34,344 nt of DNA from Caldifarciminota bacterium (GTDB taxonomy: Bacteria > Hydrothermota > Hydrothermia > LBFQ01). The notes under the pieces are model-generated. The model made no database searches and had not been told where the DNA came from. It was given only the letters and a program-made list of their open reading frames with translations. A program made the translations under genes and the position numbers. Where the stretch lies: assembly GCA_027002825.1 (NCBI GenBank), contig JALWZG010000110.1, forward strand, positions 1 to 34,344. Direction: 5' to 3'. The first letter of the stretch is position 1; the number at the start of each line of letters is the position of its first letter. This document shows, piece after piece, positions 7,547 through 32,819 of this stretch.

Positions 7547-7774
7547 TCAGAAGACCACCTCTACGAGCTTTTCCCTCCCCTTAAAACCCCTCAGTATCCT
7601 CACGTGTGTTTTCGGAACGTTGAAGTACCTCGCCAGAAGCTCCACGGCCTCGGAGTTGGCCATACCCCTCTGAGCCGGCGCCTTAACCCATACGGTTATC
7701 CGGCCGTCCCTCTCCTCCACCCTCGCCATTCTGGAGTTGGGCTTCACCCTGACCTTTATACGTCTGCGAGCCAT
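7547..7774 (-). CDS. DUF167 / YggU-family protein
   Basis: A 75-residue member of the small conserved DUF167 family. Typical features are KVRVKPNSR near the N terminus, VWVKAPAQRGMANSEAVELL in the middle, and a C-terminal GFKGREKLVEV segment. The function of the family is not established. It has its own -10 box (TAAAAT) 9 bases before the ATG. The prenyltransferase downstream also has its own promoter, so the two may be transcribed in tandem. It is divergent from the exbB operon across an 83-base gap. Confidence 0.9.
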   Translation of the reverse strand: MARRRIKVRVKPNSRMARVEERDGRITVWVKAPAQRGMANSEAVELLARYFNVPKTHVRILRGFKGREKLVEVVF

Positions 7775-7842: not shown

Positions 7843-7848
7843 TATAAT
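7843..7848 (+). promoter_or_regulatory. -10 box for the exbB-tonB-receptor-T9SS operon
   Basis: Perfect TATAAT, 9 bases before ATG 7858, with no clear -35. It is the only convincing promoter seen before the terminator at 22664, so it probably drives the whole 14.8-kb unit. Confidence 0.65.
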
Positions 7849-7857
7849 ATCTGTATC

Positions 7858-8493
7858 ATGATGACCACTCTCTTGGATCTCTTTCAGCGTGGTGGCCTGA
7901 TGATGTGGCCGATCCTCATCGTGGCCCTAATAGCCTTGGCCATATCCCTTGAGAGGATTTACTCCCTCTTCTTCAAGATAAGGACGAACCCCGTAAAACT
8001 GACCGAGCAGGTTATATCCATAATTGACGAAAAGGGTGTGAACGAGGCCATAGATTACCTCTCCAAAAGCAAAAGCCCCATAGCAAAGGTCCTCATGGCC
8101 GGACTTGAGAAGGCCGGAAAGTCAAAGATAGCCGTAGAGGAGGCCATGACCCGCCGCGCCCTGCGCGAGCTCGCCTTCCTTGACAGGGGGATGATATACA
8201 TAGCGGCCGCCGTCACCCTCGCACCCATCCTCGGATTCTTGGGAACCGTCTCGGGAATGATAAACGCCTTCAACGCCATAGCAAAGGCCGGTGAGGTTGA
8301 GCCTACGGTGGTGGCCGCGGGTATATCCGAGGCCTTGATCACCACGGCCTTCGGTCTGCTTGTGGCCGCACCCTTCTCACTCTTCTACGCCATATTCATG
8401 GACAGGATCAACTCCTATCAGAGGCAGATAGAGGAGGCTGCCAACTACCTCTTGGAGTACATGGCGGAGGCCGGCATAGTAAGGGAGGCCTGA
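7858..8493 (+). CDS. exbB: ExbB/TolQ/MotA-family proton channel protein
   Basis: A 211-residue inner-membrane protein that with ExbD forms a proton-driven motor to energise TonB. It has a first membrane helix (about residues 15-34, ILIVALIALAISLERIY), a cytoplasmic region, then two helices (about 103-130 with the PILGFLGTVSGMINAF signature, and 152-180). The signature and three-helix layout are clear. It is the first gene of the operon and should be translated from a leaderless or near-leaderless mRNA. ATG 7861 is an alternative start. The gene order exbB-exbD-exbD-tonB and the receptor that follows favour Exb over Tol function. Confidence 0.94.
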   Translation: MMTTLLDLFQRGGLMMWPILIVALIALAISLERIYSLFFKIRTNPVKLTEQVISIIDEKGVNEAIDYLSKSKSPIAKVLMAGLEKAGKSKIAVEEAMTRRALRELAFLDRGMIYIAAAVTLAPILGFLGTVSGMINAFNAIAKAGEVEPTVVAAGISEALITTAFGLLVAAPFSLFYAIFMDRINSYQRQIEEAANYLLEYMAEAGIVREA

Positions 8494-8494
8494 C

Positions 8495-8917
8495 ATGGCC
8501 ATAGTCAAGAGGGTGAGGATGGAGGAGGAGGCCGAAATCCCGACGGCATCCATGGCCGACATCGCCTTCCTCCTCATAATATTCTTCATGACCACCACCA
8601 ACTTCGCCCGCGAAAAGGGGTTGAAATTCCTCCTGCCGGAGAAGAAGGACCAACCCCAGGAGCTCAAGATAGCCAAGAAAAACCTCCTGAAGATCTCCAT
8701 AAACGACCGCGGTGAGGTGTTTTTAAACGACGAGCAGATCAACCCCAACTCCCTTGAAAAGGAGATAAAGAGGCGGCTTGAAGAGAACAAAAAGCTGATA
8801 ATCCTCATAAGGACGCACGAGAAGGCCCCTTACGGCATGATGATAAAGGTGTTTGACGCCGTAAAGGTTGCGGGCGGTAAAAAGGTGGGCCTTGGTGTTA
8901 TAAAGGAGGAGACATGA
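8495..8917 (+). CDS. exbD: ExbD/TolR-family biopolymer transport protein (first copy)
   Basis: A 140-residue protein with one N-terminal membrane helix and a periplasmic domain. The signature IPTASMADIAFLLIIFFM (about residues 11-28) contains the membrane Asp that carries protons in ExbD. The periplasmic part ends with a YGMMIKVFDAVKVAGGKKVGL segment of ExbD type. It starts 1 base after exbB with a GGAGG site 6 bases upstream. Its last codons (AAG GAG GAG ACA) also form the ribosome site of the next gene, which it overlaps by 4 bases. Confidence 0.93.
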   Translation: MAIVKRVRMEEEAEIPTASMADIAFLLIIFFMTTTNFAREKGLKFLLPEKKDQPQELKIAKKNLLKISINDRGEVFLNDEQINPNSLEKEIKRRLEENKKLIILIRTHEKAPYGMMIKVFDAVKVAGGKKVGLGVIKEET

Positions 8918-9321
8918 GGCTGAAACGCAAAAAGGAACTGCGCGCGAAAATTCCGACGGCTTCCATGTCCGATATCGCTTTCCTCCTTATAATATTCTTC
9001 ATGACCGTGACCGTGTTCAGGAAGGCGAAGGGGCTACCGGTCCAGCTCCCCTTCGCAAAGGCGACGGAGAGGATACTCAAGCAGCGCGACCTCGCCTTCA
9101 TATGGATAGGGAAGAACGGAAAGGTCAGCGTTGACGACAACATAGTACCCCCTGAGAGGGTGGTCCCGATCTTCCGGACAAAGGTGGCGGAAAACCCCGC
9201 CCTGGTCGTCAGCATCAAGGCCGACAGAAACGTCCAGTACAAGTACGTTTACAAGGTAATGGAAGCCCTGAGGGAGGCACGCGCGCTTAGGGTGGTGTTC
9301 GCCACGAGGAAGGGTGGGTGA
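8914..9321 (+). CDS. exbD: ExbD/TolR-family biopolymer transport protein (second copy)
   Basis: A second, diverged 135-residue ExbD with IPTASMSDIAFLLIIFFM (about residues 11-28), keeping the membrane Asp. Two ExbD genes in tandem are known in FCB-group bacteria, and the ExbD dimer inside the ExbB pentamer may therefore be a heterodimer here (inference). It overlaps the previous gene and tonB by 4 bases each, so all four energiser genes should be made in coordinated amounts. Confidence 0.93.
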   Translation: MRLKRKKELRAKIPTASMSDIAFLLIIFFMTVTVFRKAKGLPVQLPFAKATERILKQRDLAFIWIGKNGKVSVDDNIVPPERVVPIFRTKVAENPALVVSIKADRNVQYKYVYKVMEALREARALRVVFATRKGG

Positions 9322-9983
9322 TGGAGAAAAGGGACAGGATCTCCCTCATAAGGAAAATCTTCTTGGAGAGCAAGCTGGAAGAGGAGTATCCGAGGGACCT
9401 CAACCTCGCCTTTACGTTCGCCCTGCTCCTGACCATAGGCGCCTTCCTTTTTGTAAAGGGGTGCAAGATGCAGGAGTACGGCAGGAGGGGAAGTCAGGAG
9501 ACCATGCTTGAGCAGATCGACATACAGACGGAGTTTGAGGAGCCACCCCCTCCACCCCCTCCAAAGCCGAAGGTTTCCCTTCCGGAGGAGATAGAAGAGG
9601 TGGAGAGCGAGGAGGAGGCCGACACCATAGACATAGCCGAGACGGTTGACTTCAGCGAAGAGGATATACCACCACCACCACCACCATCTCAGGTGTTTGA
9701 GATTTACGAGGTCAGCGAGGAGCCGAAACTGCTCGTAAACGTCCAGCCGGAGTATCCGGAGATAGCCCGTCAGGCCGGACTGGAGGGGAAGGTTATAGTG
9801 GAGGCCATCATAGACGAGAACGGAAACGTGATAGACGCACGCGTCGTGTACAGCGACAACGAGATCTTCAACAAGGCCGCCCTGGACGCCATGCGCAAGA
9901 TGAGGTACAAACCGGCAAAGCATAAGGGCATACCTGTAAAGGTTAAGATCAGGCAGCCCTTCGTCTTCAGACTGAGGAGGTGA
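9318..9983 (+). CDS. tonB: TonB energy transducer
   Basis: A 221-residue TonB. It has a cytoplasmic N-terminal segment, a membrane helix (about residues 31-50, LAFTFALLLTIGAFLFV), an acidic and proline-rich periplasmic stretch with runs of seven and six prolines (about residues 75 and 118), and a C-terminal TonB domain (about 138-221, with VQPEYPEIARQAGLEGKV). Its long cytoplasmic lead and double ExbD partner resemble TonB systems of the FCB group. The C-terminal domain contacts the TonB box of outer-membrane receptors, and such a receptor is encoded two genes downstream. The CCA-codon run at 9670-9687 is simply polyproline. Confidence 0.93.
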   Translation: MMEKRDRISLIRKIFLESKLEEEYPRDLNLAFTFALLLTIGAFLFVKGCKMQEYGRRGSQETMLEQIDIQTEFEEPPPPPPPKPKVSLPEEIEEVESEEEADTIDIAETVDFSEEDIPPPPPPSQVFEIYEVSEEPKLLVNVQPEYPEIARQAGLEGKVIVEAIIDENGNVIDARVVYSDNEIFNKAALDAMRKMRYKPAKHKGIPVKVKIRQPFVFRLRR

Positions 9984-9986
9984 GCT

Positions 9987-10232
9987 ATGGTTTGGATAGG
10001 GGCGTTTGTCTCGGGATCGTTCCCGGTGGCCCTCACATCTGCCCCCAGCGGAAACGTCGCATGGGCCGGTATAAGCCACTCCACCGACGAGATCTTCAAC
10101 GAGGCGGCCCTTGTCGCCGCGCGCAAGATGAAGTTCAAGCCGGCCAGGGTAGGAGGAAAACCCGTTAAAGTTAAGGTCGTTATACCTTTCGTCTTCAGCC
10201 TAAAGGAGCGCAAAAGGGGAGGTGAAAGGTGA
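9987..10232 (+). CDS. Stand-alone partial TonB C-terminal domain
   Basis: An 81-residue protein whose last 50 residues repeat the end of TonB (EIFNEAALVAARKMKFKPA against EIFNKAALDAMRKMRYKPA, then PVKVKV and PFVFSL). DNA similarity over this part is visible too, pointing to tandem duplication. The N-terminal half is altered: the PEYPEIARQAGLEGK segment is missing and about 10 extra residues lie before the SGNV strand. It has no membrane anchor and no clear signal peptide, only a mildly hydrophobic start (MVWIGAFVSGSFPVAL). A good ribosome site (GAGGAGGTGAGCT) precedes the ATG, so it may be translated. It could be a decaying duplicate or a small accessory protein; I cannot decide. Confidence 0.65.
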   Translation: MVWIGAFVSGSFPVALTSAPSGNVAWAGISHSTDEIFNEAALVAARKMKFKPARVGGKPVKVKVVIPFVFSLKERKRGGER

Positions 10233-10257
10233 AGGGTATGGTGGCGCTTTTCAAAAA

Positions 10258-10262
10258 GGAGG
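10258..10262 (+). promoter_or_regulatory. Ribosome-binding site setting the receptor start
   Basis: GGAGG within AAAAAGGAGGTG, 5 bases before ATG 10268, which begins a normal signal peptide. A second GGAGG at 10219-10223 precedes an in-frame GTG at 10229 that would add 13 residues, so two starts are possible. Confidence 0.6.
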
Positions 10263-10267
10263 TGAAT

Positions 10268-13200
10268 ATGAAAATGAAGAGGTTTTTTGCATCTCTTTTG
10301 GCGCTTACGTTTGCCCTACCGCTCTTCGCCCAGTACGGCAAGATAGTCGGTAGGGTGGTCAGCGCGGAAAACGGCGAGCCTATACCGGCTGCCATCATAA
10401 AGATCGTCAGCGGCCCTGCCGTGGGTGGAACGTACGCCGATGAAAAAGGCTATTACGTCCTCCTGAGGTTGCCACCCGGAACCTACACCTTGCAGGCCAA
10501 AGCCGTGGGCTATAAGCCCCAGATCATAAAGAACGTCGTGGTTGAGGCGGATCACACGGTTGAGGTCAACTTCAGCCTACCCTCCGAGGCCATAGAGGTG
10601 GAGGCGGTCGTGGTGGAGGCCAAGGAGAAGATAATAAGGAAGGACGAGACGGAGAGCAAGGCCATCATAAAGGGTGAGAACATACAGAACATACCCGTCG
10701 CATCCTTGGAGCAGGCCATCTCCCTTTCCTCCGGCGTCAGGGTGAGCGGCGCCGTGATCCAGGTGAGGGGTGGCCGTCCCGGTGAGGTCTCCTATGTCGT
10801 GGACGGCGTTGAGATAACCGACCCCTACAGCGGCATCCAGACCATAAGCCTTCCCCTGAACGCGATACAGGAGGCATCCGTCAGCAAGGGCGGTTTCGGT
10901 GCGGAGTACGGCTCGGCCTCCTCCGGTGTGGTCCAGGTCTCAACGAAGGAGGGTACGGAAAAGTACGAGGCCTCCCTGCAGATCTTCTCAAGCGCTGGAA
11001 TGGGTGGGTTCTTCAACACCAACGTCGGAGACCCCTATATGAAGTACTTCCAGCCCCCCTACTTCTACGGCGGAGACAGGTACTACGTGGACGCCGAGAA
11101 GAGCAAGACGGGTACGGCGCTGTGGAACGAGTTCGCACAGTTTGACAGCGTAAGGGCGGCCGTTTACAACCAAAAGGCCTCCGAATTTATCGGTAAGGAT
11201 CCCTACTTTAAGGATTTCGCCACGTACTTCATAGGCAAGGACTACTTCATGTATCCCTGGCGTGAGAACTACTTCAGGCCCATAATCGGCATAGGCGGAC
11301 CCCTGCTTCCCTTCTACAAGGCCCTGAGGTTTTATCTCTCATACGATTACCTGAGGTCAAACGGCACTTACCCCAACACGCAGGGGGTCACAGGCTCTTA
11401 CCAGTTCAAGCTCTCCTGGTTCATAACACCCCAGCTGAAGATCTTCTTCGGAAGCGTCGGGGATAACAGCCAGTCCGGATGGGGGTTCGATCCCGAATGG
11501 AGACTCCTTCTGACGAGGTTGCCCAGCATAAAGACCACCAGCCGTCAGTTCGCCTTCGGTGTCAACTACGCCTTTAACCCCAAGACCTACGCAGAGCTGC
11601 GTGTGGGTTATCACAGAAACCTCGTCAGGGCGATCACGCCCGTTGATATGGACCTTGACGGCGTCATAGACTTCACGGACAGGGATGGGGACATGCTCGT
11701 GGAGGTTGACCTGGACATGGTGCGCAAGATAGGGAGGTCCGTAAACCCAGCCCTTATAAACGAGGAGAAGGAGAACTGGGTGGAGCTGAAGGCCTGGTGG
11801 TGGGAGCAGACCGCCACGGGTCTTTATCCCACACTCGTCAAACAGACGACCAGGCAGAACTACTTCCTTGGAGTTGTGAAGGGGACGAACGACACTGTCC
11901 TGGTCGCCGTCGGTGAATACCTTTACGACAAGGACGGCAACCCGGTGGAGCTGGACACGGTCTTCAGGGTAAAGGACTGCTACGTCCCGGCCGAGGATAC
12001 CGTAAAGTCGTGTACGACTAAGATGGTCTTCTCCAACATATACCAGCCCGCCGACCACATATGGTACAACAGGACGGTGTACTACACCCGCAAGACTCAG
12101 ACCTGGAGTACGAGGTTTGACTTCCTCGCTCAGGACCCCCTCAACCTCCGCGGCCACGAGTTCAAGACCGGATTTGAGTTCTACAAGTACAGCGTGTTCA
12201 CCATAGACGTGGACTACGCCTCCGGTGGCAACATATACATGAACTACGTGGACGCCCACCCGGTTAAGTTCGCCTACTACATCCGTGATAAGATGGAGTT
12301 TGAGGGCTTCATAGCCAACGTCGGTTTCAGGTTTGACTACTACGACGCCAACGCCTGGGTCCCGGCGGACCTCAGGGATCCCGTAAAGAACTACTCCATG
12401 GCCCAGAGGGGCCCGGTCTTCCTGAGGGATTCCGCGGCCTGGACGAATCCCAACATCAGGGATACGTTCTTCATAAAGAATCCCAAGCGTGTCCCGGCCA
12501 CGTTCTACGTAAGCCCCCGCATAGGAATCTCCCATCCCATATCCGAGAGTGACGTCCTCCACTTCACCTACGGACACTACTTCCAGGTCCCCAGGATGAG
12601 GTGGCTGTACGCCAACCAGTTCTGGCTCATGACGGGTGCGTTTGACATAATAGGAAACCCTGCCCTCAAACCCGAGAAGACCATATCCTATGAGGTGGGT
12701 ATAAAGCACGCCTTCAACCCCTACACCGTCCTTGACGTGACGGCCTTCTACAAGGACATAGCCGACCTGGTCCAGAGCCAGAACGTCCAGATAGGAAACA
12801 CGCAGAACTCCTACACCACCTTCGTGAACCAGGACTTCGGTTCTGTCAGGGGTCTTGAGTTCAACTTCATGAAGCTGCCCGGCGGAGGTATACCGCTGTT
12901 GGCTCCGCTCACGGTCAACATCTCCTACACCCTGCAGTTCGCGAAGGCCACGTTCGCAAGCCAGTACGCCATGTACCGCCTTGAGTGGCTCGGAATAGCC
13001 CCCGACTACACGGAGGAGCATTACGTGGACTGGGATCAGAGGCACGTGATAAACGCCGTCGTATCCTACGATGTCCCCCTGGTGAGGAAGACCCTGACCA
13101 CCCAGTTCATGACCGGATACGGCCTCGCCTTCATATACAGCTACGGCAGCGGTACTCCCTACTCACCTCCCCTGAGGTCACCTCTGGACGTCATAGAGAG

Positions 13201-13459
13201 GACCAACTCCATGCGTCTTCCTTCGGTTCAGAACGTTGACTTCAGGCTTTACAAGAACTTCGGTCTCCCCTTCGGCGCCACCCTCAGGCTCTTCGCGGAC
13301 ATATACAACCTCTTGAATGATAGGACTATTGTGGGCTACGCCGACATAAACTACTACTACTACTTCGGAGATCCCGAGGGACCCTCCAAGCACCCGGCCG
13401 TCTACCGCAGGGGTAGACTCACGCGCTACGGTTTGCAGATAACTTGGCGTGCCAAGTAA
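10268..13459 (+). CDS. TonB-dependent outer-membrane receptor with carboxypeptidase-like N-terminal domain
   Basis: A 1063-residue SusC/FecA-type outer-membrane gate. In order: signal peptide MKMKRFFASLLALTFALPLFAQ; a CarboxypepD-regulatory-like Ig domain (about 22-105, GRVVSAENGEPIPAAIIKI); a possible TonB box around EVEAVVVEAKEK; a plug domain (about 125-225, with QVRGGRPGEVSYVVDGVEI); then a large beta-barrel ending near LYNLLNDRTIVGYADINYYY. An insertion at residues 460-475 carries DxDxDGxxD followed by DRDGD, a calcium-loop pattern probably in an exposed loop. TonB and ExbBD just upstream should power it. The genes after it encode T9SS-exported proteins and a surface lipoprotein, so it may work with these in uptake. 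The substrate is unknown. The final residues (ITWRAK) lack the usual terminal aromatic. Confidence 0.92.
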   Translation: MKMKRFFASLLALTFALPLFAQYGKIVGRVVSAENGEPIPAAIIKIVSGPAVGGTYADEKGYYVLLRLPPGTYTLQAKAVGYKPQIIKNVVVEADHTVEVNFSLPSEAIEVEAVVVEAKEKIIRKDETESKAIIKGENIQNIPVASLEQAISLSSGVRVSGAVIQVRGGRPGEVSYVVDGVEITDPYSGIQTISLPLNAIQEASVSKGGFGAEYGSASSGVVQVSTKEGTEKYEASLQIFSSAGMGGFFNTNVGDPYMKYFQPPYFYGGDRYYVDAEKSKTGTALWNEFAQFDSVRAAVYNQKASEFIGKDPYFKDFATYFIGKDYFMYPWRENYFRPIIGIGGPLLPFYKALRFYLSYDYLRSNGTYPNTQGVTGSYQFKLSWFITPQLKIFFGSVGDNSQSGWGFDPEWRLLLTRLPSIKTTSRQFAFGVNYAFNPKTYAELRVGYHRNLVRAITPVDMDLDGVIDFTDRDGDMLVEVDLDMVRKIGRSVNPALINEEKENWVELKAWWWEQTATGLYPTLVKQTTRQNYFLGVVKGTNDTVLVAVGEYLYDKDGNPVELDTVFRVKDCYVPAEDTVKSCTTKMVFSNIYQPADHIWYNRTVYYTRKTQTWSTRFDFLAQDPLNLRGHEFKTGFEFYKYSVFTIDVDYASGGNIYMNYVDAHPVKFAYYIRDKMEFEGFIANVGFRFDYYDANAWVPADLRDPVKNYSMAQRGPVFLRDSAAWTNPNIRDTFFIKNPKRVPATFYVSPRIGISHPISESDVLHFTYGHYFQVPRMRWLYANQFWLMTGAFDIIGNPALKPEKTISYEVGIKHAFNPYTVLDVTAFYKDIADLVQSQNVQIGNTQNSYTTFVNQDFGSVRGLEFNFMKLPGGGIPLLAPLTVNISYTLQFAKATFASQYAMYRLEWLGIAPDYTEEHYVDWDQRHVINAVVSYDVPLVRKTLTTQFMTGYGLAFIYSYGSGTPYSPPLRSPLDVIERTNSMRLPSVQNVDFRLYKNFGLPFGATLRLFADIYNLLNDRTIVGYADINYYYYFGDPEGPSKHPAVYRRGRLTRYGLQITWRAK

Positions 13460-13471
13460 AGGAGGTTGAAA

Positions 13472-15766
13472 ATGAGGAGGTTTCTGCTCTTGTCTTTAAT
13501 TGCGGCGACCCCCCTCATGGGGAGGGATAAGGACGCCCCGGTCGGAAGTTTCAAGGCCCTACCGGTTGACAAAAAACCCCTGGCCATAACCGTGGGGGAG
13601 GTCTGGAACACGCATACGAACTACGGAAGACACGGGGACCCGGCCGGTGTAATGCCCAGCTACAGCCGGCCGGGGGATGCACCCGGTGAAAACGTGTACT
13701 ACCTCTGGCACGGGGGCCTCTGGATAGCGGCCTTCGCGGGTGGCCAGAAGTACGTGACCCACGACGAGTACAACGAGGAGGAGTGGACACCGAGTCCGGA
13801 CAACGGCGCGATCGGTTTTGCATACGTAGGACCGGGCAAGTCCTACATGGACGTTGAGGCCCGCTATCAGGACTTCTCCGGAGATCCGGACAACGCCTCC
13901 GGCAGGCACCTCGGCCTGAAGGTGATAGAGAGGGTCCTGTCCTGGCCACACCACCCCTACAACGAGTTCTTCGTTTATGAGGTGGGTATAACCTACGACA
14001 AGAACTCCGCCGACATACCATCACCTCCGGACGTCCTGCAGATATACGTGGGCTACAAGTACGACGCCGACGTGTGCGGCGCGGACCACACCGATCCCCA
14101 CATAGACGACCTCGTGTACTACGACGGCGCCCCTGAGGAGTGCGGAATACTCCTGATGGATCACAAGATGGGTTGGGAGGACGAGGTGACCGTCCTTTCC
14201 GATACCGTAATACCCCTGCCCGACGGGATTCCCGACGGCTTTACGGTTTGGGGAGACGATCCGGAGGAGAAGCAGATAACTATAGCCTATTACGAGACAC
14301 ACTTCGGTCCGGGCGCCAGACCCGATAGCTTCCAGCTCACAAGGCCTGCAAGGGATGGTGGAACCGAGACGGTGTACTACTACTACCTCATACCCCGGAA
14401 CATGTCCGTCATATACGACGGTGATAACCCCGCGGAGCCCGGAGATGACCGTGGGGAAGGGGGTGCGTGCAGCGGATGGATAGGGATGAGGCTCATATAC
14501 GCCCCTCCGAGTCCCGAACACAAGGTGGCCACCAACGGACAGGCCACCGGATCCTTCTGCTCGGCCATAACCACGGCCAAAAGCACAGGCCCCAACGATA
14601 CCATATGGATGATCTACCCAAGGGGCCATCAGTGGTGGAACTGGGAGAACGATCCCCCCAACGACGTGGCCAAGTACGACTACATAGTGGGGGATCACCC
14701 CGCCACACGGCCTTACAGGTTTGCCCCCCATCCCTACGATTTCGGAGCGTCCGAGTTTGACTACAGGTTCCTCCTCACCAGTGGTCCCCACTCGCTCGCG
14801 GACGGTGATACCCTGTGGTTCGTTTTCGTGGGCGCCGTGGGTGAAGGGTTGAACGGAGGTCCGAACGATCACTGGTACGGAGGTGCGTACAGGTGGGGTC
14901 TCCGCACGCTCATGGACAAGGCCCTCGTGGCTTACTACACGGGTGTTGACGGCCTGTGCGATCCCGCCCACCCATGCTCTCCGATTGAGGGTAACCACTG
15001 GCAGATCCCCGTTCCTCCCGTTTCCCCATTCCTCTCCTACGGCACATCCGAGAACTCCGTGATACTCATGTGGGACAAGAGGGCGGAGAACACACCCGAT
15101 CCCATCAAACAGCAGATAGACTTCGTGGGATACGCCGTCTACAGGGCCGTGTTCGCCCCCAACTTCACCGATCCTCCACTCAAGGTGATCATAGACAAGA
15201 GCAAGCCCCAGAGCGTGAAGGATGCCCTCAGGGGCTACTGGGCGCAGTACTTCCAGGAGATGGGTGTTGACACCAGCGGTAGGATCGTGGAGAAGGACCT
15301 GACGGGTCAGAACACGTACGTGGACAGCGATCCCCCTGTCGGTTATCCGCTCTACTACGCCGTGACGGCCTTTGACACTGATACGCTTGAATCCGCAAAG
15401 GACAACTACCTCAAGACGGCCAGCGGTGCTCCCATGCCCGTTTACGTGGGAGGCGTCCCCGGCACGGGCGATTGGACGAAGGACATCGTGATAGCCCCCA
15501 ACCCGGTTTACGGTTCAACCTTCTGGTCCGCCACGAGCCTGACACCGGAGGTGAAGTTCTTCAACGTACCCGCCCACGCCCGCATAGACATATACAGCTT
15601 TACCGGGGATCACATCCAGACCCTCTACAACAACCTACCCACCAAGGGCTACGTCACCTGGAACCTCCTCACGCCTCAGGGAAGGCTCGTCGCCCCCGGC
15701 ATATACTTCGTCCGCATAACCGACGGTGAGAAGGTGTACTACGGCAAGTTCGTCGTCTTAAGATAG
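13472..15766 (+). CDS. Secreted protein with FN3-like domain and T9SS C-terminal sorting domain
   Basis: A 764-residue exported protein of unknown function. The signal peptide is MRRFLLLSLIAATPLMG. A large aromatic- and Gly-rich middle part (about 20-500) has no motif I can name. A fibronectin type III-like domain follows (about 510-640, with SVILMWDKRAENTPDP, FVGYAVYRAVF and YPLYYAVTAFDTDT), and the C terminus (last about 90 residues, from APNPVYG) is a type A T9SS sorting domain ending GIYFVRITDGEKVYYGKFV and VLR. I chose ATG 13472 because GGAGG lies 6 bases before it; a TTG at 13466 is less likely. It sits between the TonB-dependent receptor and the PorV/Q-like gene in one operon, so it is a likely surface partner of the receptor. 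Confidence 0.85.
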   Translation: MRRFLLLSLIAATPLMGRDKDAPVGSFKALPVDKKPLAITVGEVWNTHTNYGRHGDPAGVMPSYSRPGDAPGENVYYLWHGGLWIAAFAGGQKYVTHDEYNEEEWTPSPDNGAIGFAYVGPGKSYMDVEARYQDFSGDPDNASGRHLGLKVIERVLSWPHHPYNEFFVYEVGITYDKNSADIPSPPDVLQIYVGYKYDADVCGADHTDPHIDDLVYYDGAPEECGILLMDHKMGWEDEVTVLSDTVIPLPDGIPDGFTVWGDDPEEKQITIAYYETHFGPGARPDSFQLTRPARDGGTETVYYYYLIPRNMSVIYDGDNPAEPGDDRGEGGACSGWIGMRLIYAPPSPEHKVATNGQATGSFCSAITTAKSTGPNDTIWMIYPRGHQWWNWENDPPNDVAKYDYIVGDHPATRPYRFAPHPYDFGASEFDYRFLLTSGPHSLADGDTLWFVFVGAVGEGLNGGPNDHWYGGAYRWGLRTLMDKALVAYYTGVDGLCDPAHPCSPIEGNHWQIPVPPVSPFLSYGTSENSVILMWDKRAENTPDPIKQQIDFVGYAVYRAVFAPNFTDPPLKVIIDKSKPQSVKDALRGYWAQYFQEMGVDTSGRIVEKDLTGQNTYVDSDPPVGYPLYYAVTAFDTDTLESAKDNYLKTASGAPMPVYVGGVPGTGDWTKDIVIAPNPVYGSTFWSATSLTPEVKFFNVPAHARIDIYSFTGDHIQTLYNNLPTKGYVTWNLLTPQGRLVAPGIYFVRITDGEKVYYGKFVVLR

Positions 15767-15776
15767 GAGGTGGAAA

Positions 15777-16772
15777 ATGTTGATGCTCATGGTTTTGTCT
15801 CAACAGGGTGAAGGGGAATGGAACCCCTTCGCCAAGGTCGGAATTGCGGGAAGTAAGTTCCTGCAGCTTCACACCTCTCCCAAGGTGGCAGCCATGGGAG
15901 GCGCGGGTGTGACCCTCTTCGGAGACGACCCCCTCCTCATGATCAACAACCCGGCATCCGCCATGTTCGCCACCAACAAGGCCGTGGGTGTGGGCTTTAT
16001 GCCCTACTGGGTAAGCACATACGTGAGCGATATAGCCTACCTCCATCCCCTCGGTAGGTTCAAGCTGGGGGGGTACATCCACGGCGTCACATCCACGGGA
16101 TTTGAAGAAGTTAGGCTCAACGAGGAAACCTACATGTACGAGAAGACGGGTAAGACGTTCAACTACACGGCCATGGCCCTCGCCTTTGTCGCCGGCGCGA
16201 GGCTGACGGACAGGTTCTCAGTGGCCCTTGCCCCTAAGTTCATATACGAGGGTTTCGGCAGCTACACCAGCACCTGGGCCGTGGCCGTGGACGTGGGTAC
16301 GGTATTTGAGACCGGATGGAGAGGGGTAAACCTCGGGATGAGCGTCCAGAACTTCGGAACCGACCCAACCCTCAAAGGCTCCTACATCAGGTACTCCTTC
16401 CAGGGCGGCCAGGTGGTCCAGGACACCATACCCTACAAGAGCTACAACCTTCCCCTGACCTTCAAGGCCGGTCTCTCCATGGACATATTCAGAAACTCCT
16501 ACAACGCCGTTGTCGCCGTAGTTGAGGCCAACCACCACACGGACAACGCCGAGTCCTACAACCTCGGCTTCCAGTACTCCTACTCCGACATGTTCTTCCT
16601 CAGGTTTGGGAAGAGGTTCTTCGGAGGGTTTTCCTGGGTGCCCGAATCCCACGATGAGGTCTTCGGTCTCGGGTTTGGCGTTAAGTTTGCCGGCTTCTCC
16701 TTTGACTACTCCTACACCGTAAACTACCGCATGCCGGATCTGAACAGGTTCAGCCTTGTTTACAGGTTTTAA
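15777..16772 (+). CDS. PorV/PorQ-family outer-membrane protein
   Basis: A 331-residue predicted outer-membrane beta-barrel. The N-terminal signature (FLQLHTSPKVAAMGGAGVTL, then DDPLLMINNPASA) matches the PorV/PorQ family, in which PorV shuttles T9SS cargo to the attachment complex. The rest is alternating, aromatic-rich barrel sequence ending YRF, a proper terminal Phe. Flanking genes encode T9SS cargo, which supports a shuttle or anchor role, though PorV/PorQ-like proteins are also found next to TonB-dependent receptors without proven function. The start is supported by GGAGG 6 bases before the ATG. The resulting signal (MLMLMVLSQQ) is very short and has no Lys or Arg. Confidence 0.83.
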   Translation: MLMLMVLSQQGEGEWNPFAKVGIAGSKFLQLHTSPKVAAMGGAGVTLFGDDPLLMINNPASAMFATNKAVGVGFMPYWVSTYVSDIAYLHPLGRFKLGGYIHGVTSTGFEEVRLNEETYMYEKTGKTFNYTAMALAFVAGARLTDRFSVALAPKFIYEGFGSYTSTWAVAVDVGTVFETGWRGVNLGMSVQNFGTDPTLKGSYIRYSFQGGQVVQDTIPYKSYNLPLTFKAGLSMDIFRNSYNAVVAVVEANHHTDNAESYNLGFQYSYSDMFFLRFGKRFFGGFSWVPESHDEVFGLGFGVKFAGFSFDYSYTVNYRMPDLNRFSLVYRF

Positions 16773-16786
16773 AAGGAGGTTGGAAG

Positions 16787-19633
16787 ATGAGAAATGCCTT
16801 TATCTTGGGTTCTCTTGTTGTGGCGACTCCCCTGTTGGGGGTTAGCAGCGTTGACATATACCTTCCCACCCTCAAGATCATGTACTCGGTTGACGATATG
16901 CCCACCAGTGTTCCGGTAATGGACTCCACGCCCTACGCCTATATAGTCGGCCTAAAGGCGAACGTATACCCCATGAACCTCGTGGACGTACCGTCTTTCC
17001 GGGATTTCCCACCCATAGGATGGAGCGCCGATTCCGGATGGTTCAGGAAGCTGGAGCAGTCGGGCCAGACCTTCCTCTTCCTCGGCGCAATACAAACGGC
17101 GACGTCCAACACCGGGGATTACGCCCTTACGTCCTCCGACATAAACCTTGACACCACGAACGTACCTCTGAACGACACGTTTAAGTTCAAGTACAGGCTC
17201 ACGTATCTGAACCCCAGCGATACCATATTCGTAGAGATCAAGAATGCCTCCGATGCTTCCACGTGCTGGACGCCCATAGGAAAGCTGACGGATGCCCATG
17301 CCACGGGGGATACGGCTTGGGCGGTTTTGGACGTTGTACCGGCATCTTACCCGTGCGGCTCGTTGACGTCCAGCAGTGTGGTGAACGTGAGGTTCCGCTT
17401 TGACGACAACAGCAACGTCTCGGACGATACGTCCAAGTACTTCGCCCTCTACGAGATGTACCTCGTGGGCAAATGGTACAGGCCTACACCAAACGATACG
17501 CTGTCCGACGCCCAGCTCGCCGATTACGTGGACAAGGTCAAAAGGGCGTTTACGGGGGTTCCCGAAGCCGTATTCGGCGTAGCCGGTATAACACAGGAGG
17601 ATCTCAAGACCAAAAGGAGCGACAAAAAAGTCGTGATATTCGTAGGCCCGCTCAACATGTCCACGAGTGGGGTTGACAAGAAGATCCGTGTTGGCTTTTG
17701 GGATATGTACGATACGCTCAACACCAGCGATGTGATATACATAAACACCGCTCAGGGATCTGCCAATCTACTGTTCGGCGCGGTCTGGGACACCTTAAAG
17801 ATAAGGAAATACCTCGCCTTCCAGTACGCGAGGATAGTGGCCTACAGCATGGACACCACGGAAAAGAACGACATTTATCCCGAATGGTTCAACCAGTTCC
17901 AGGTGGTGGCAAAGGCGGCCTGGCTTGCCCACAGAGCCCTGCAGGACATGGGAGATCCCTACGGGTTGGCCTGGGGGATAGAGCAAACCTCCTCGGCCGT
18001 TGGCAAATCCGACATGCACGTGTATCCCTTCAGCTTTGAGTACGACGGTAAGGTGATCTCCCAGCAGAACCTTACCAAACTCCTGTCATGGCTCGTGTTC
18101 GTTGAAGAAAAGGTGGGAACCGGAAATCTCGTGAACTCCTTCAAGGAGGCCGATGTTCCGTTTGCCTATCTACCAAGTCTACCCAACTCCATAGGGAACG
18201 TACTCGCCCTGAACGGGTTGGACTTCTACGAGGCGGTTGAGGAGTACTACCTGAGGTTGCTCTTCACCAACCAGCCGTGGGCTTTGGACGAGTACAAGTT
18301 CATCGGTCCGGATACGGTTTTCAACAAGGTCACCATGGGCAAGTACTCAGGGGCCGGAACACAGGAGAACACGGCGTTTCCCGGACTCGCAGCGGTCCGC
18401 TACAACTTGGTTCCCATCTCCGTCCCGAAGGTCTACTTTGACGGTTATGACTACAACAAGGTCGTGACCATAACCGGCGATACCTTAAACGGGTTCTCCC
18501 TTTACCTGTTCAATACCAACACGCAACAGCTCCAGAAGGTGGATCTGGACGAGCGGATGAGGTTCAACCTCTACGAGAGCGACGGTTTGGGCGAGTACAA
18601 GCTCTTCCTCATAAACCTCGGTCCCGTATCCTCCATGTCCCTGGGAACGCGGGATACGATCGCCCCGCAGGTGATAGACGTGGGCATACTGCCGAGCGCA
18701 GCGGCCCCTGAATACGTGGACATTTACGTCCTCGGAAGGAACTACACACCCGACACGGGCAACCTCGATCTGGGCAAGTTCTATTACGATGCCGGATCGG
18801 AAGGTGTGCTTTTCGCCTTTTGGCCGGCCGAGAACACGGATCTCTACGATACGCTTTTCGTCGTCGCCAGGTTCGTGGCATTTGTTGAGGATTCATCCTC
18901 CCACTTCGGTACGACGGAGGGATGGGTGTATCCGTTTAACTTCGCCAGCGTCAGGATGGAGTTCAAAGACCTCTTCGGAAACAGGTACTACGGCAAGATC
19001 AGGTACCGCATAAAGTACGCCCAAAACCCCACAGGTATAGACTACACGAAAGCGGCGGGTGTGGACGACGATGAGGGTGAGATTTACAGCGTCAGGATAG
19101 GAAACGACCTGAGCGAGATAATAGAGGGCGAGCTCTACATGTCCTCCCTTACGGGTGAAAAGTCCTTCATACTCATACCCAACGGTAAGGAGTACACGTT
19201 TACCTCCCCGGTTTCCGCCCGTGTGAAGGTGAAGATGGAAGAGGGTGAGCGCGTGTACGCCCACATGGACGGTGAGTGGAAAGAGGTCCCCTTCTACTAC
19301 TACCCCGAAGAGGGCTTGGCAGAGGTCTTTATAAACTCCGCCCGCGGCATATACGTGGGCAGGGACAAGCCCAAATCCTCTTACGTCTCCGAGTTCTCCG
19401 TCAAATCCGACGTGAACCTCGTGCGCGTTTCCGTTCCCTCCGCGGGCAAGATCACGCTTAAAATATACAGCTCAATGGGTCGCCTGGTTAGGATGATAGA
19501 CTACGAGGCGAAGGAGGGTGGGAAGTACGCCTTCAACCTCTCCAACCTGCCGCGCGGTGTATACCTCGTGGAGGCCCGTTTCGGAGACGAGAGGAAAACC
19601 GTAAAGGTTATAGTCATAGGAGGTGAGAGATGA
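16787..19633 (+). CDS. Large secreted protein, degenerate metallopeptidase-like, with T9SS tail
   Basis: A 948-residue exported protein. The signal peptide is MRNAFILGSLVVATPLLG. Residues about 235-420 recall the scaffold of secreted gluzincin-type metallopeptidases (YVDKVKRAFTGVPEAVFG, then KKVVIFVGPLN, then DVIYINTAQ, then a helix). However, the place of the zinc motif HExxH is taken by FQYAR (345-349), and the downstream W-x-N-E-G region reads WFNQF. If the comparison is right, every zinc ligand is gone. The C terminus (about 880-948) is a T9SS-type sorting domain with LPRGVYLVEARFGDERKTV. The last four residues (GGER) are encoded by the ribosome site of the next gene, which it overlaps by 4 bases. 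A binding or structural surface role is more likely than proteolysis. Confidence 0.78.
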   Translation: MRNAFILGSLVVATPLLGVSSVDIYLPTLKIMYSVDDMPTSVPVMDSTPYAYIVGLKANVYPMNLVDVPSFRDFPPIGWSADSGWFRKLEQSGQTFLFLGAIQTATSNTGDYALTSSDINLDTTNVPLNDTFKFKYRLTYLNPSDTIFVEIKNASDASTCWTPIGKLTDAHATGDTAWAVLDVVPASYPCGSLTSSSVVNVRFRFDDNSNVSDDTSKYFALYEMYLVGKWYRPTPNDTLSDAQLADYVDKVKRAFTGVPEAVFGVAGITQEDLKTKRSDKKVVIFVGPLNMSTSGVDKKIRVGFWDMYDTLNTSDVIYINTAQGSANLLFGAVWDTLKIRKYLAFQYARIVAYSMDTTEKNDIYPEWFNQFQVVAKAAWLAHRALQDMGDPYGLAWGIEQTSSAVGKSDMHVYPFSFEYDGKVISQQNLTKLLSWLVFVEEKVGTGNLVNSFKEADVPFAYLPSLPNSIGNVLALNGLDFYEAVEEYYLRLLFTNQPWALDEYKFIGPDTVFNKVTMGKYSGAGTQENTAFPGLAAVRYNLVPISVPKVYFDGYDYNKVVTITGDTLNGFSLYLFNTNTQQLQKVDLDERMRFNLYESDGLGEYKLFLINLGPVSSMSLGTRDTIAPQVIDVGILPSAAAPEYVDIYVLGRNYTPDTGNLDLGKFYYDAGSEGVLFAFWPAENTDLYDTLFVVARFVAFVEDSSSHFGTTEGWVYPFNFASVRMEFKDLFGNRYYGKIRYRIKYAQNPTGIDYTKAAGVDDDEGEIYSVRIGNDLSEIIEGELYMSSLTGEKSFILIPNGKEYTFTSPVSARVKVKMEEGERVYAHMDGEWKEVPFYYYPEEGLAEVFINSARGIYVGRDKPKSSYVSEFSVKSDVNLVRVSVPSAGKITLKIYSSMGRLVRMIDYEAKEGGKYAFNLSNLPRGVYLVEARFGDERKTVKVIVIGGER

Positions 19634-20859
19634 GGAAGCTGAGTCTGGCGCTGGTAGCCGTTTTTGTGGGGGGTGTTGTGGTGGGGTGTAGGCCTTCGGA
19701 TGAGCTCAAGGATATTCCCGACCTCGTTAAGAAAGAGGACCTGCTGAAGAGCGGTTGGAAGCTTTACAAGGAGGGCAAGTTTGACTCCTCCTTCGCAAAG
19801 TTTGACAGCGTCATCACCTATATGGACGCAACGGACCTGGAGGCCCACCTCGGAAGGGGTCTCTCCGCTATGCGCCTCGGAGACTTTGCCCTTGCCCACA
19901 AGGAGTTCGGCCTCTTATACTCCCAGTACGTAAAGGAGGAGATCAGAAGCTACACCCTCTACGTGCCGGATGCCCAACAGGACACCATAGGGGGTGGAAA
20001 GTCAAACGTTCAAATGGTGTGTCAACCTTTGGCCGCCCTTCCGAGCGGTGGAAACTACACGATGGGCGTCTGGAAGATGGGGGTTTTCGCCGATGCGAAC
20101 AACCCATCACAACAGCTGAAGGACCTGTTTGAGGACAGCGACTACATCTATTTCCCTGTGGATGTGCTTACCGCAAAGGTCGTACACGATGGAGGAGGTG
20201 ATAAGACCATAGACCCGGCCACTTTTGGTCTTGCCTTTACGCCCACAGCCCAACCGTTAACCGAAAACGGCGGAAGCCTGTCATACACGGATACGGCGGG
20301 TCCGGTTTTCATGTACGCCTCCTCCGTCAGCGGTGCGAGCGAGGAGCCCATACTCTGCGGATGGATGTACGATGGAAACGGCGATACCGTCAAGGTGTCC
20401 TTCGTATCCTACAGGATAAGCAAGCAAAACCCCCTTGGAGGTGAGAATCCCGCCCTCGTCTGGATAGCACTGGCGGCCGACGCCTACGCCTATTACACCG
20501 ACCCCTCCTTTACCTACAAGAAGAGGGCGGCCTACCTGGCCTACATGGCCTATCTCCTCCACCCCTTCAGGGGTGATGTTCCCACCGACCTCCAAAACCT
20601 TGAGGGGCTTACGGAATCCGACGATGTGGTCAAGAACGGACTTCTCGGCATAGCCACGCTGGGGTATTACAAGGACAAGAGGGTTGGAAACGCCGTATCC
20701 CTCATACGTTTTTACGGTGATAACGCCTTCCCCGGCTCCGACTGGAACTACCTGCCGGGTACATCGCAGGAGATGAGCGGGACGGTGGGCTTTTGCAAGG
20801 ATCCGAACGCCAACGTTTCCGTCGTTTGGAAGGTTAACGAGCTTTTCTATGGAAGGTGA
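19630..20859 (+). CDS. TPR-containing surface lipoprotein
   Basis: A 409-residue predicted lipoprotein. The signal MRKLSLALVAVFVGGVVVGC has a lipobox-like VVGC with Cys20 as the lipid site. TPR-like helices follow (about residues 38-100, LLKSGWKLYKEGKFDSSFAK and AHLGRGLSAMRLGDFALAHK). The middle (about 115-265) is beta-rich and unassigned, and the C-terminal part is helical again (from about 270). In this context it resembles the lipoprotein partner that often accompanies TonB-dependent receptors in the FCB group, but sequence alone does not show it to be SusD. A GGAGG site lies 6 bases before the ATG, inside the end of the previous gene. Confidence 0.78.
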   Translation: MRKLSLALVAVFVGGVVVGCRPSDELKDIPDLVKKEDLLKSGWKLYKEGKFDSSFAKFDSVITYMDATDLEAHLGRGLSAMRLGDFALAHKEFGLLYSQYVKEEIRSYTLYVPDAQQDTIGGGKSNVQMVCQPLAALPSGGNYTMGVWKMGVFADANNPSQQLKDLFEDSDYIYFPVDVLTAKVVHDGGGDKTIDPATFGLAFTPTAQPLTENGGSLSYTDTAGPVFMYASSVSGASEEPILCGWMYDGNGDTVKVSFVSYRISKQNPLGGENPALVWIALAADAYAYYTDPSFTYKKRAAYLAYMAYLLHPFRGDVPTDLQNLEGLTESDDVVKNGLLGIATLGYYKDKRVGNAVSLIRFYGDNAFPGSDWNYLPGTSQEMSGTVGFCKDPNANVSVVWKVNELFYGR

Positions 20860-20865
20860 TAAAAA

Positions 20866-20870
20866 GGAGG
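20866..20870 (+). promoter_or_regulatory. Ribosome-binding site choosing ATG 20878
   Basis: GGAGG in AAAAAGGAGGT. It is only 1 base from the ATG at 20872 but 7 bases from the ATG at 20878, the spacing used elsewhere in this operon, so 20878 is the better start. Confidence 0.6.
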
Positions 20871-20877
20871 TATGAGC

Positions 20878-22644
20878 ATGATGCTTTTTGTAGCCTATGC
20901 GGTTGCATCGCCTTATCCGATAACCAAGGCGAAGGTGTGGAGGGAGAACCTCCACGAGAGGGTTGCACCCTTCAGCTGGAAGGCTGGAGGTGCTGATCAC
21001 TCGCTCTTCGGTGGGAGCGTCCTGCTGACGGACTCCTCCGGACATTACTGGACAAACCTCCTCAACGGTCCCCGTCCCCTCCTCATCAGGGGTGATACCA
21101 TAGCGTGGGTCCACAGAGGCGTTCCCGCTACCGAGAATCTCGTGGTGTGGTGGTCCTTTGACGGTGGTAACACGTGGCACTACAGGGACAACGTTGAAGA
21201 GGGTATAACCGGAGGCTCTGGATTCGGATGGTATCCCCAGCTTGCCGGTTTCACCAGCGATGGGAAGGTGGTGGTAGTATATCCGGACCCTGCTCCCGGT
21301 TCTAATGCGGTATGCGCCGTTGAGGTGGTTGAGAGCGGAACGCTTGAGGGCGCCTGTGAGAGCAGCGTTCCCCACGACGACTACGCCCAGTACGCTTGGC
21401 AGATAGGTCCCGATCAGTTCGCCATCCTCTCCTCCTCTTACCGCTTTAGCGATACCGCCTCCCTGTACTACTTGGTCTACGATGCCAGCACAAACTCCTT
21501 CTCCACTCCTCAGGCCATAAGGGACGGCGCCGCCCAGGAGGACTTCACCATCATAGAGGCGCACCTCTTCGGGGATTCCGTCTTAGTGGTCGGAAGCAGC
21601 GACAACGCCACCGCCGTATGGGGTGAGCCTTCGGGATACGGGTACATCTGGGTCAGGAACGACGGGACCACCAACCCCGATGCTCCCTCCATCAGCGGGG
21701 ACATGTTCTACGGCGACCTCTCAAGTCAGTTTATCCTGACCATAGGCGGCACAGAGTACTATCCCTTCGGTTATACGAACGTGCAGTACCACACGGCCGT
21801 CTCTCCGGACGGAAGCGTCTGGATCGCGTACCCTTCAAACGACACGTCTATCACCGGCTGGAGCTGGGAGGACCTCGGCGGTTGGTTGGAGCAGTCGAGC
21901 CACATAATCGTCACGAACAAGTCCCCGTTCACCACGGGTATCATACCCTTCTTCTACCCCGATGACGGCTCCGGCGGCGTCAACACGAACAGGACCCTCA
22001 CGTGGCCCGTCGTGTTCTTCGGAAGCACACCCGATACCATGGCCGTGGTCTGGATTCAGTACGAGGAGAACACACCTCCCGCCTGTAGCCCCGATCCCGC
22101 AAGCCTCACCACCTTTGACTTTACGAGCGTTCTGGCCTTTGCCAAAAGCACGGACGGGGGGTACACCTGGTGCACGGACACGATCCACGTTGAGGGTGGG
22201 TACTTCGGCTTCCCCGTCGCCCCTGTGGTGGGCAAGTTCGCCAACAGGCTCGTAAACGACTCCGCCTATATAGTCTACGTCACGCCCATGGCGGCCTCCG
22301 GTGCCAAGGATCCCTTCTGCCACCTCATGCACAGGTTCCAGGGTGGAACCGAACCCTACTACGCGGTTGACGTTAAGCTCTTCAAGTTCTCCACGTCCTG
22401 CAGCGGTGATCCCACGGGTATAAGCGCGGACGTGATCCTTGACGTCGCCGAGAGACCCGCCCAGCTTCCCGACAGGGTCGTCGTTGAGGTCGTAAAGGGT
22501 GGTGTAAAGGTCTCCGGTGCCGCTTCCGTATACGACATCAGAGGATCCCTCGTCGCCGAGACCGAAGGTGGATTCGTCGCCCTCAAGAGGGGCGTGTACT
22601 TCGTCAAGACGGCAAACGGTGCCACGAAGGTGGTCGTCAGGTAA
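20878..22644 (+). CDS. Secreted beta-propeller-like protein with Asp-box repeats and T9SS tail
   Basis: A 588-residue exported protein, the last gene of the operon. A short uncharged signal (MMLFVAYAVAS) is followed by beta-rich sequence with two Asp-box (BNR) motifs, SFDGGNTW (about 95-102) and STDGGYTW (about 422-429). Asp boxes mark turns in sialidase-like and other beta-propellers; catalytic sialidase residues were not identified. The C-terminal segment (about the last 60 residues, with VYDIRG, then ALKRGVYFVKTANGATKVVV and a final R) is a compact T9SS-type sorting tail. It should be exported to the surface with the other cargo proteins of the operon. An intrinsic terminator begins 19 bases after the stop. 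Confidence 0.82.
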   Translation: MMLFVAYAVASPYPITKAKVWRENLHERVAPFSWKAGGADHSLFGGSVLLTDSSGHYWTNLLNGPRPLLIRGDTIAWVHRGVPATENLVVWWSFDGGNTWHYRDNVEEGITGGSGFGWYPQLAGFTSDGKVVVVYPDPAPGSNAVCAVEVVESGTLEGACESSVPHDDYAQYAWQIGPDQFAILSSSYRFSDTASLYYLVYDASTNSFSTPQAIRDGAAQEDFTIIEAHLFGDSVLVVGSSDNATAVWGEPSGYGYIWVRNDGTTNPDAPSISGDMFYGDLSSQFILTIGGTEYYPFGYTNVQYHTAVSPDGSVWIAYPSNDTSITGWSWEDLGGWLEQSSHIIVTNKSPFTTGIIPFFYPDDGSGGVNTNRTLTWPVVFFGSTPDTMAVVWIQYEENTPPACSPDPASLTTFDFTSVLAFAKSTDGGYTWCTDTIHVEGGYFGFPVAPVVGKFANRLVNDSAYIVYVTPMAASGAKDPFCHLMHRFQGGTEPYYAVDVKLFKFSTSCSGDPTGISADVILDVAERPAQLPDRVVVEVVKGGVKVSGAASVYDIRGSLVAETEGGFVALKRGVYFVKTANGATKVVVR

Positions 22645-22663
22645 GCTATAACCCACAGCTTAG

Positions 22664-22692
22664 GGGCCGCCCGATCGGGCGGCCCTTTTTTT
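22664..22692 (+). terminator. Intrinsic terminator of the exbB operon
   Basis: A perfect 9-bp GC stem (GGGCCGCCC / GGGCGGCCC) with loop GATC is followed directly by seven T residues. It is the only textbook intrinsic terminator seen in the window. Its T-run ends 13 bases before the -10 box of the next gene. Confidence 0.95.
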
Positions 22693-22705
22693 GTTTGTGC
22701 AAACT

Positions 22706-22711
22706 TATAAT
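22706..22711 (+). promoter_or_regulatory. -10 box for lytic transglycosylase gene
   Basis: TATAAT, 9 bases before a TTG at 22721. The spacing equals that at exbB and at 25229, which supports TTG 22721 as a near-leaderless start. Confidence 0.6.
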
Positions 22712-22720
22712 ATCTGGCCG

Positions 22721-26233: not shown

Positions 26234-26257
26234 TTGCGTCCCCTTACCTTTCGGGGC

Positions 26258-26263
26258 TATAAT
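26258..26263 (+). promoter_or_regulatory. -10 box for clpPX
   Basis: TATAAT, 12 bases before ATG 26276, with a weak -35 candidate TTGCGT at 26234-26239 (18-base spacer). A perfect 8-bp palindrome CCGGCCGG (26266-26273) covers the expected transcript start and could be an operator or chance. Confidence 0.6.
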
Positions 26264-26275
26264 TTCCGGCCGGAT

Positions 26276-26887
26276 ATGAGGAGTCAGTACGTGCCGATGG
26301 TCATAGAGCAGGAGGGGAGGGGGGAGAGGGCTTACGATATATACTCCCGGCTTCTGAAGGACCGCATAATTTTTCTGACATCTCCCATAGACGACCACGT
26401 CGCCGGACTCATCATCGCCCAGATGCTCTACCTTGAGACCCAGGACCCGGAAAAGGACATATACTTCTACATAAACTCCCCTGGAGGACACGTCACGGCG
26501 GGCCTGGCCATTTACGACACCATGCAGTACATAAAACCGCCCGTGGTGACGGTTGGACTCGGCATGGCGGCCTCCATGGCCGCCGTCCTCCTGGCCGCGG
26601 GGCATCCGGGTAAGAGGTTGATGCTCCCACACGCGAGGGTGATGATACACCAGCCCTGGGGGGGTGTTCAGGGACAGGCGACGGACATAGAGATAGAGGC
26701 GAGGGAGGTCTCACGTTTGAAGAGGATGCTCAACGAGATCCTGTCCAAGCACACGGGACAACCCCTGAAGAAGGTGGAAAAGGACACGGACAGAAACTTC
26801 TACATGTCCGCCCAAGAGGCCGTGGCCTACGGCATAGTTGACAGGATAGTGGACCTGAGGAAGGCTGGAGATGGCAAAAAGGGCTAA
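26276..26887 (+). CDS. clpP: ATP-dependent Clp protease proteolytic subunit
   Basis: The 203-residue barrel-forming peptidase that works with ClpX. The fold is textbook, including the N-terminal [26 protein letters not shown], the nucleophile Ser100 in GMAASMAA and His125 in MIHQP. The third triad residue, Asp172 in B. subtilis (DTDRDNF), aligns with Asn174 here ([10 protein letters not shown]). A natural Asn at this place is known in Listeria ClpP1, which needs a partner for full activity. I chose ATG 26276, which gives the normal ClpP start; the frame is open further upstream but would run through the promoter. It overlaps clpX by 17 bases in another frame, so the pair is co-translated. Confidence 0.96.
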
Positions 26888-32763: not shown

Positions 32764-32774
32764 GAGGCGAGTGT

Positions 32775-32804: not shown

Positions 32805-32807
32805 GGG

Positions 32808-32813: not shown

Positions 32814-32819
32814 AAACCG

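Follow-up and report, generated by a model that had tools for sequence, protein, structure and literature searches.

The window, a 34,344-nucleotide stretch of DNA from a Caldifarciminota bacterium (contig JALWZG010000110.1), contains an operon (7858-22644) that joins genes for an ExbBD-TonB energizer and a TonB-dependent receptor (TBDR) to those for a PorV/PorQ-family (PorV/Q) barrel, a lipoprotein, and three exported proteins (c766, c948, and c590) associated with the type IX secretion system (T9SS) by their sorting tails. We found that the order of these genes is conserved across families and phyla, which argues that their grouping is more than chance and supports the view that they behave as a single evolutionary unit. 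The explanation that we favor, as a possible rather than a probable one, is that the operon encodes a SusCD-like, TonB-driven outer-membrane transport complex whose outer subunit is exported by the T9SS and anchored by a barrel instead of by a lipid. We prefer a transporter mainly because triads of TBDR, tailed protein, and PorV/Q barrel have multiplied as paralogous loci, in which they resemble SusCD loci. The operon comprises these open reading frames (ORFs):

7858-8493 (+): ExbB/MotA-family proton channel (PF01618, MotA_ExbB, 7e-30)
8495-8917 (+): ExbD/TolR-like protein 1 (PF02472, 2e-29)
8914-9321 (+): ExbD/TolR-like protein 2 (PF02472, 7e-25)
9318-9983 (+): TonB, with one membrane span, a proline-rich spacer, and a TonB_C domain (PF03544, 2e-22; sequence)
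9987-10232 (+): ORF 5 (81 aa), a truncated second copy of the C-terminal domain of TonB (PF03544, profile positions 16-79 of 79)
10229-13459 (+): TBDR of Oar/SusC-type architecture, with N-terminal CarboxypepD_reg, Plug, and barrel (PF13620, PF07715, PF00593)
13466-15766 (+): c766, with an acidic N-terminal domain of ~500 aa, an Fn3-like part, and a PorZ/PorU-type C-terminal domain (TIGR04183, 24.7 bits)
15777-16772 (+): PorV/PorQ-family outer-membrane barrel (NF033709, PorV_fam, 134 bits, 7e-39, cut-off 90)
16787-19633 (+): c948, with a lugdulysin-like (M30) metalloprotease domain lacking HExxH, an immunoglobulin (Ig)-like part, and a type A tail (TIGR04183, 31.6 bits)
19630-20859 (+): lipoprotein of 409 aa resembling tetratricopeptide repeat (TPR) proteins, with lipobox VVGC and motif DIP...GW..Y..G.F..A...F (supported by relatives)
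20872-22644 (+): c590, exported, probably a beta-propeller with BNR-like motifs, with a weak sorting tail (sequence)

Across the organism's class, the order ExbB-ExbD-ExbD-TonB-TBDR-c766-PorV/Q is nearly constant; behind it come a large tailed protein of about 730-1200 aa, a lipoprotein, and, in many cases, another tailed protein; the operon's full order (ExbB-ExbD-ExbD-TonB-TBDR-c766-PorV/Q-c948-TPR lipoprotein-c590) recurs there. The core (TBDR-c766-PorV/Q-c948-lipoprotein, usually with a further tailed protein) is also present in Calditrichota, KSB1, Neomarinimicrobiota, Gemmatimonadota, Fermentibacteria, Aegiribacteria, and others, according to a scan that took a single genome for each species and in which bin labels vary in quality. 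A relative of c766 occurs in 57 of 60 related genomes, many matching its C-terminal part only; the organism itself groups with WOR-3/Hydrothermota-like lineages, and the same-family relatives in the comparison include Candidatus Caldipriscus. The original prediction, made from this DNA alone, had treated the genes as one unit, and their co-occurrence in relatives bears it out: among loci with a full-length c766 and enough flank, a TBDR gene lies directly upstream of c766 in 64 of 70, and the next gene after c766 is that of a PorV/Q barrel in 65 of 69. A c948-like gene is present at 51 of 53 such loci and the lipoprotein gene at 41 of 44; both are upper estimates, because the training loci of the profiles are the very ones counted and include near-duplicate contigs.

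The members of the set differ in how well they are conserved. Outside the organism's family, median identity to the window is 39% for c766 (the best conserved of the surface proteins), 35% for the TBDR, and 32% for PorV/Q; the operon ExbB is 55-89% identical to its syntenic relatives. Neither c948 nor the lipoprotein has a long BLAST match outside the family, and homology at their positions was recognized by profile-profile comparison across phyla (98-100%). The least conserved member, c590, has one cross-family BLAST match, and its homology by hhalign (99.4%) holds within the class, with none outside.

Separate loci in the same genomes carry paralogous TBDR-tailed protein-PorV/Q triads, whose tailed proteins share only the last ~230 residues of c766. 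Among the PorV-family and Plug matches listed, 25 of 150 PorV-family matches have a same-strand Plug domain within 8 kb upstream, versus about 2 expected; the operon copies are included in this count.

Other arrangements were also seen. At three loci (L160:8009-17388, L161, and L167), the order is Ton-TBDR-X-PorV/Q, where X (990-1010 aa) has just its last ~230 residues in common with c766, which looks like a swap of the front domain. A third arrangement (L171:30-9615 and L172:2375-10111) consists of a TBDR, a barrel of the PorV/Q family (with a score in L172 only), a lipoprotein of ~315 aa, a 612-aa protein with a PorZ-type tail, and a 440-aa lipoprotein.

The tail of c766 passes the cut-off of TIGR04183 (type A). 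Models of PorZ and PorU match this tail in 23 of 23 c766 relatives, versus only 2 of 22 and 3 of 22 proteins of the c948 type. PorZ and PorU are T9SS components that retain their tails (PMC5121618); PorQ and PorV, respectively, serve as their anchors (PMC7463736). Unlike ordinary cargo, c766 thus looks like a retained machine component; because its tail is of the PorZ/PorU type and the adjacent barrel is nearer to the PorQ model, it would be expected to stay on the surface, held by that barrel. We rejected the idea that c766 is itself PorZ, because the tail region alone aligns; the two propellers of PorZ and the C25 peptidase of PorU are both absent from c766 in the domain search. Its N-terminal ~500 residues contain conserved Asp-rich and HQWWNWE motifs, and no Pfam family matches c766, this domain included. 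An AlphaFold2 model of c766 is of good quality (pLDDT, 82.6), and a fold search with it returned mostly generic Ig/Fn3 matches at low TM-scores. The N-terminal domain also occurs within proteins of 1400-1500 aa encoded away from TBDR or PorV/Q genes (L058, L109, L111, and L129).

The neighboring barrel scores higher against the PorQ model (79.5 bits; cut-off 220) than against that of PorV (47.3 bits; cut-off 250), both below equivalog level. In profile comparison it aligns with the PorV structure 6h3i (6e-24), whereas a structure of the FadL family is a weak match (0.003); this leaves its identification as BamG unsupported. Genomes of the phylum have 3 to 22 PorV/Q paralogues each. The genome that contains the window encodes SprA (G000:C15; 289 bits in total, cut-off 200) and a PorU-like protein (G000:C15; 271 bits, below the 420 cut-off), and SprA- and PorU-like proteins are found in nearly all relatives as well; their presence makes T9SS export of the tailed operon proteins plausible. 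Downstream of the operon, 28513-32829 (-) encodes a C25-family peptidase (gingipain/PorU family; 1438 aa) that has an FG-GAP repeat and a T9SS sorting tail.

A TonB-box-like motif, EAVVVEA, is located at residue 125 of the TBDR, just ahead of the plug. Since an EVVVxA-type box is kept, with some variants, in TBDR orthologues long enough to show the region, coupling of the receptor to proton motive force is plausible. Against the SusC family model (TIGR04056) the TBDR scores 64.2 bits, short of the cut-off of 368.

It had been proposed that the energizer serves the receptor with which it is cotranscribed, but such dedication is not borne out. In six genomes that are 95-100% complete (G013, G015, G018, G023, G026, and G028), the single ExbB-family match is that of this operon or its counterpart, although each genome has 3-7 Plug-domain receptors; there, the Ton genes therefore serve the whole cell, and we rejected a dedicated energizer. 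Of 55 loci, 19 have an ExbB gene ≤6.5 kb upstream of c766, and cores from other phyla usually have none nearby (36 of 55). The Ton genes are upstream of the TBDR gene in the WOR-3/Hydrothermota class and between the TBDR gene and c766 in Fermentibacteria/Aegiribacteria; these two placements suggest that they joined the core on two separate occasions. The genome that contains the window has a second ExbB-family system (G000:C11, L169:4970-10533, minus strand), beside a 362-aa distant TonB homologue and with an 851-aa protein upstream. Partial second TonB C-terminal domains follow TonB in three related genomes (window 9987-10232, L030:5485-5799, and L032:14396-15489), in differing states of decay or remodeling. 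We also considered whether the Ton operon powers the T9SS instead of GldLM; GldM was unmatched in 60 relatives, but so was the control, and we make no such claim.

Three T9SS cargo proteins had been predicted, which holds only in part. Both c766 and c948 pass TIGR04183, but c766 has a tail of the PorZ/PorU type, c948 joins an ordinary type A tail to what looks like a dead metalloprotease, and the tail of c590 is barely detectable: c590 falls below the TIGR04183 cut-off, and its tail was found solely with an in-house profile of such tails (3e-6, small database) that was trained partly on c590 relatives. A BNR_2 match was found in the Calditrichota protein at the c590 position. A profile of 22 c948 homologues matches the M30 catalytic domain of lugdulysin (7bb9) at 2e-29, yet the zinc-binding HExxH motif is absent from 67 of 67 positional homologues, and the window sequence reads FQYAR there. 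It looks as if c948 is a dead protease in every lineage examined, and loss of the catalytic motif makes binding a more likely function than cleavage. This assignment replaced that of an inactive M6-type protease (NF052323), for which only the sorting tail aligned where coordinates were seen; a fold search with c948 gave mostly generic Ig/Fn3 matches at low TM-scores, and its identity came from the profile search. The lipoprotein profile retrieved generic TPR matches only, and no SusD-family match was found among the operon proteins in family searches.

Taken as a transporter, the operon might work as follows. Exported across the outer membrane via SprA, c766 would keep its tail, dock on the adjacent PorQ-like barrel as PorZ does on PorQ, and, once docked, cover the TBDR and handle its ligand. 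Accessory surface subunits would be provided by the lipoprotein, c590, and c948, the last perhaps a peptide or protein binder; ExbBD-TonB would drive ligand entry and also power the cell's other receptors. Our guess is that the imported ligand is derived from protein or peptide. Capture or assembly at the outer membrane, together with the direction of transport, the substrate, and the physical assembly, is what we infer here from sequence. Consistent with such a transporter are the conserved order across the class and other phyla of the Fibrobacteres-Chlorobi-Bacteroidetes (FCB) group, the profile-profile homology of the c948 and lipoprotein positions between phyla, retention of the TonB-box-like motif, the tail type of c766, the nearness of the barrel to PorQ, the paralogous triads, the two Ton arrangements, and the c948 domain kept without its catalytic motif. 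Several points weigh against it. The lipoprotein gene is four genes away from that of the TBDR, unlike SusD, and its product is not SusD by sequence. A fold search with the ~500-aa domain of c766, where ligand binding would be expected, found nothing informative, with a top TM-score to query of about 0.25. The core often occurs in relatives without Ton genes in the neighborhood (no nearby ExbB in 36/55 loci), and the complex of TBDR, c766, and barrel is itself predicted from sequence. Finally, near-universal presence, usually with one best copy per genome, fits envelope building as well as it does uptake.

Envelope building is the alternative that we take most seriously, while judging it unlikely: the operon would encode a machine resembling T9SS attachment or β-barrel assembly machinery (BAM) that places, folds, or anchors surface proteins, with the TBDR as energy source or scaffold. 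The very deep synteny and the usual single best copy suggest a core function, c766 has a PorZ/PorU-type tail and adjoins a PorQ-like barrel, and the BAM of Bacteroidota does show FCB additions, namely a FadL-family barrel (BamG) and surface lipoproteins (PMC12611786). However, genes for BamA and SprA are absent from the unit, relatives have a separate PorU with adjacent PorV-family barrels, and c948, the lipoprotein, and c590 diverge fast (the single cross-family BLAST match being that of c590), which would be unusual in a core assembly machine.

Secretion of the kind mediated by Oar, in which the TBDR and ExbBD-TonB would export or release the tailed proteins c948 and c590 on the model of Oar and PopC in Myxococcus, seems quite improbable to us. 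The TBDR shares its N-terminal CarboxypepD_reg architecture with Oar, and PopC provides a precedent in which TBDR-dependent secretion requiring ExbBD-TonB is established (PMC6434023). However, the architecture is common, being present in 28% of the TonB-dependent transporters of that survey, and the cargo here bears T9SS tails, for which the SprA and PorU of this genome already provide a dedicated exporter. Least probable of all, in our view, is a loose grouping in which outer-membrane genes are cotranscribed for dosage only, with no single machine and with Ton genes that serve all receptors. The sole ExbB copy in six near-complete relatives with several Plug receptors would be in keeping with it, but dosage would neither preserve the TBDR-c766-PorV/Q order at so many loci (64/70 and 65/69) in many phyla nor give rise to paralogous copies of the triad.

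Two candidate transcription signals flank the operon:

7843-7848 (+): possible -10 element TATAAT, in the gap between divergent genes (sequence)
22662-22687 (+): intrinsic terminator with an 11-pair stem (9 G-C) and a T run

ORF calling found 11 plus-strand ORFs spaced -4 to +14 bases apart, closer together than the limit of 35 bases given in the original prediction for its eleven same-direction genes; the number agrees, although ORF 5 is merely a TonB fragment. Because the gene upstream (7547-7774) runs in the opposite direction, a transcription start is expected in the 83-base gap between the two (7774/7858). The -10 box predicted before the first gene is indeed present as TATAAT, but no -35/-10 pair was detected at this place in the promoter scan, in which promoter-like sites were at chance level; since this element is only 10-15 bases from the ATG, transcription from it would yield an RNA with almost no leader. 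The predicted textbook terminator after the last gene was recovered as the strongest of 17 terminator-like sites in the scan. Behind it, starting 46 bases past the operon, lies a gene for a lytic transglycosylase with an SLT domain (22691-24403, plus strand), and clpP-clpX are a few genes farther downstream (26234-28106). In a Calditrichota bin (L103:4085-6685), the core is immediately preceded by apparent clpP, clpX, and engB genes, possibly an old neighborhood.

Most of the protein families in the operon have known relatives, while the gene unit itself is absent from the open-access literature searched; that no description was found there is weak evidence of novelty. With a little less confidence than we have in the transporter itself, we suggest that the operon may represent a class of TonB-powered machines found across much of the FCB group beyond the well-studied Bacteroidota, in which the T9SS supplies the extracellular subunit and a PorV/Q barrel anchors it. 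If so, a secretion system would build the outer half of an energized transporter, and the best-conserved form of the machine would serve these phyla as a core surface complex. If the unit is one machine, TonB transport and type IX secretion, usually studied apart, become linked; a function is gained for a block of proteins kept in order across phyla with few or no cultured members; and some PorV/Q paralogues would serve to hold surface subunits beside receptors.

The operon shares features with several known systems while differing from each. Like SusCD/RagAB of Bacteroidota, it has a CarboxypepD_reg TonB-dependent barrel, co-encoded surface proteins, and paralogous loci within one genome, but its outer partner is a T9SS-tailed protein beside a PorV/Q barrel, where SusCD has the SusD lipoprotein. 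As in the PorU-PorV-PorQ-PorZ attachment complex of the T9SS, a PorV/PorQ-family barrel adjoins a protein with a PorZ/PorU-type tail; in contrast, c766 lacks the PorZ propellers and the PorU C25 peptidase, the operon adds a TBDR, an inactive protease, and a lipoprotein, and the PorU-like gene of this genome lies elsewhere, outside the operon. Domain architecture and ExbBD-TonB coupling are shared with Oar-PopC of Myxococcus (PMC6434023); here, however, the co-encoded proteins have T9SS tails and the unit includes a PorV/Q barrel, features that are not described in the Oar-PopC abstract. The BAM of Bacteroidota with BamG and BamH likewise combines an FCB-specific FadL-like barrel with extracellular subunits in one machine (PMC12611786), whereas the operon has neither BamA nor BamD and its barrel aligns to PorV and weakly to the FadL family. 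The middle domain of c948 is like that of lugdulysin (peptidase family M30; profile match, 2e-29), but c948 and all 67 positional homologues lack its zinc-binding HExxH. As with PorP/SprF-type shuttles for type B tails, a cargo gene lies beside its own outer-membrane barrel (PMC12618676); here, however, the barrel belongs to the PorV/Q family and the tails are type A-like.

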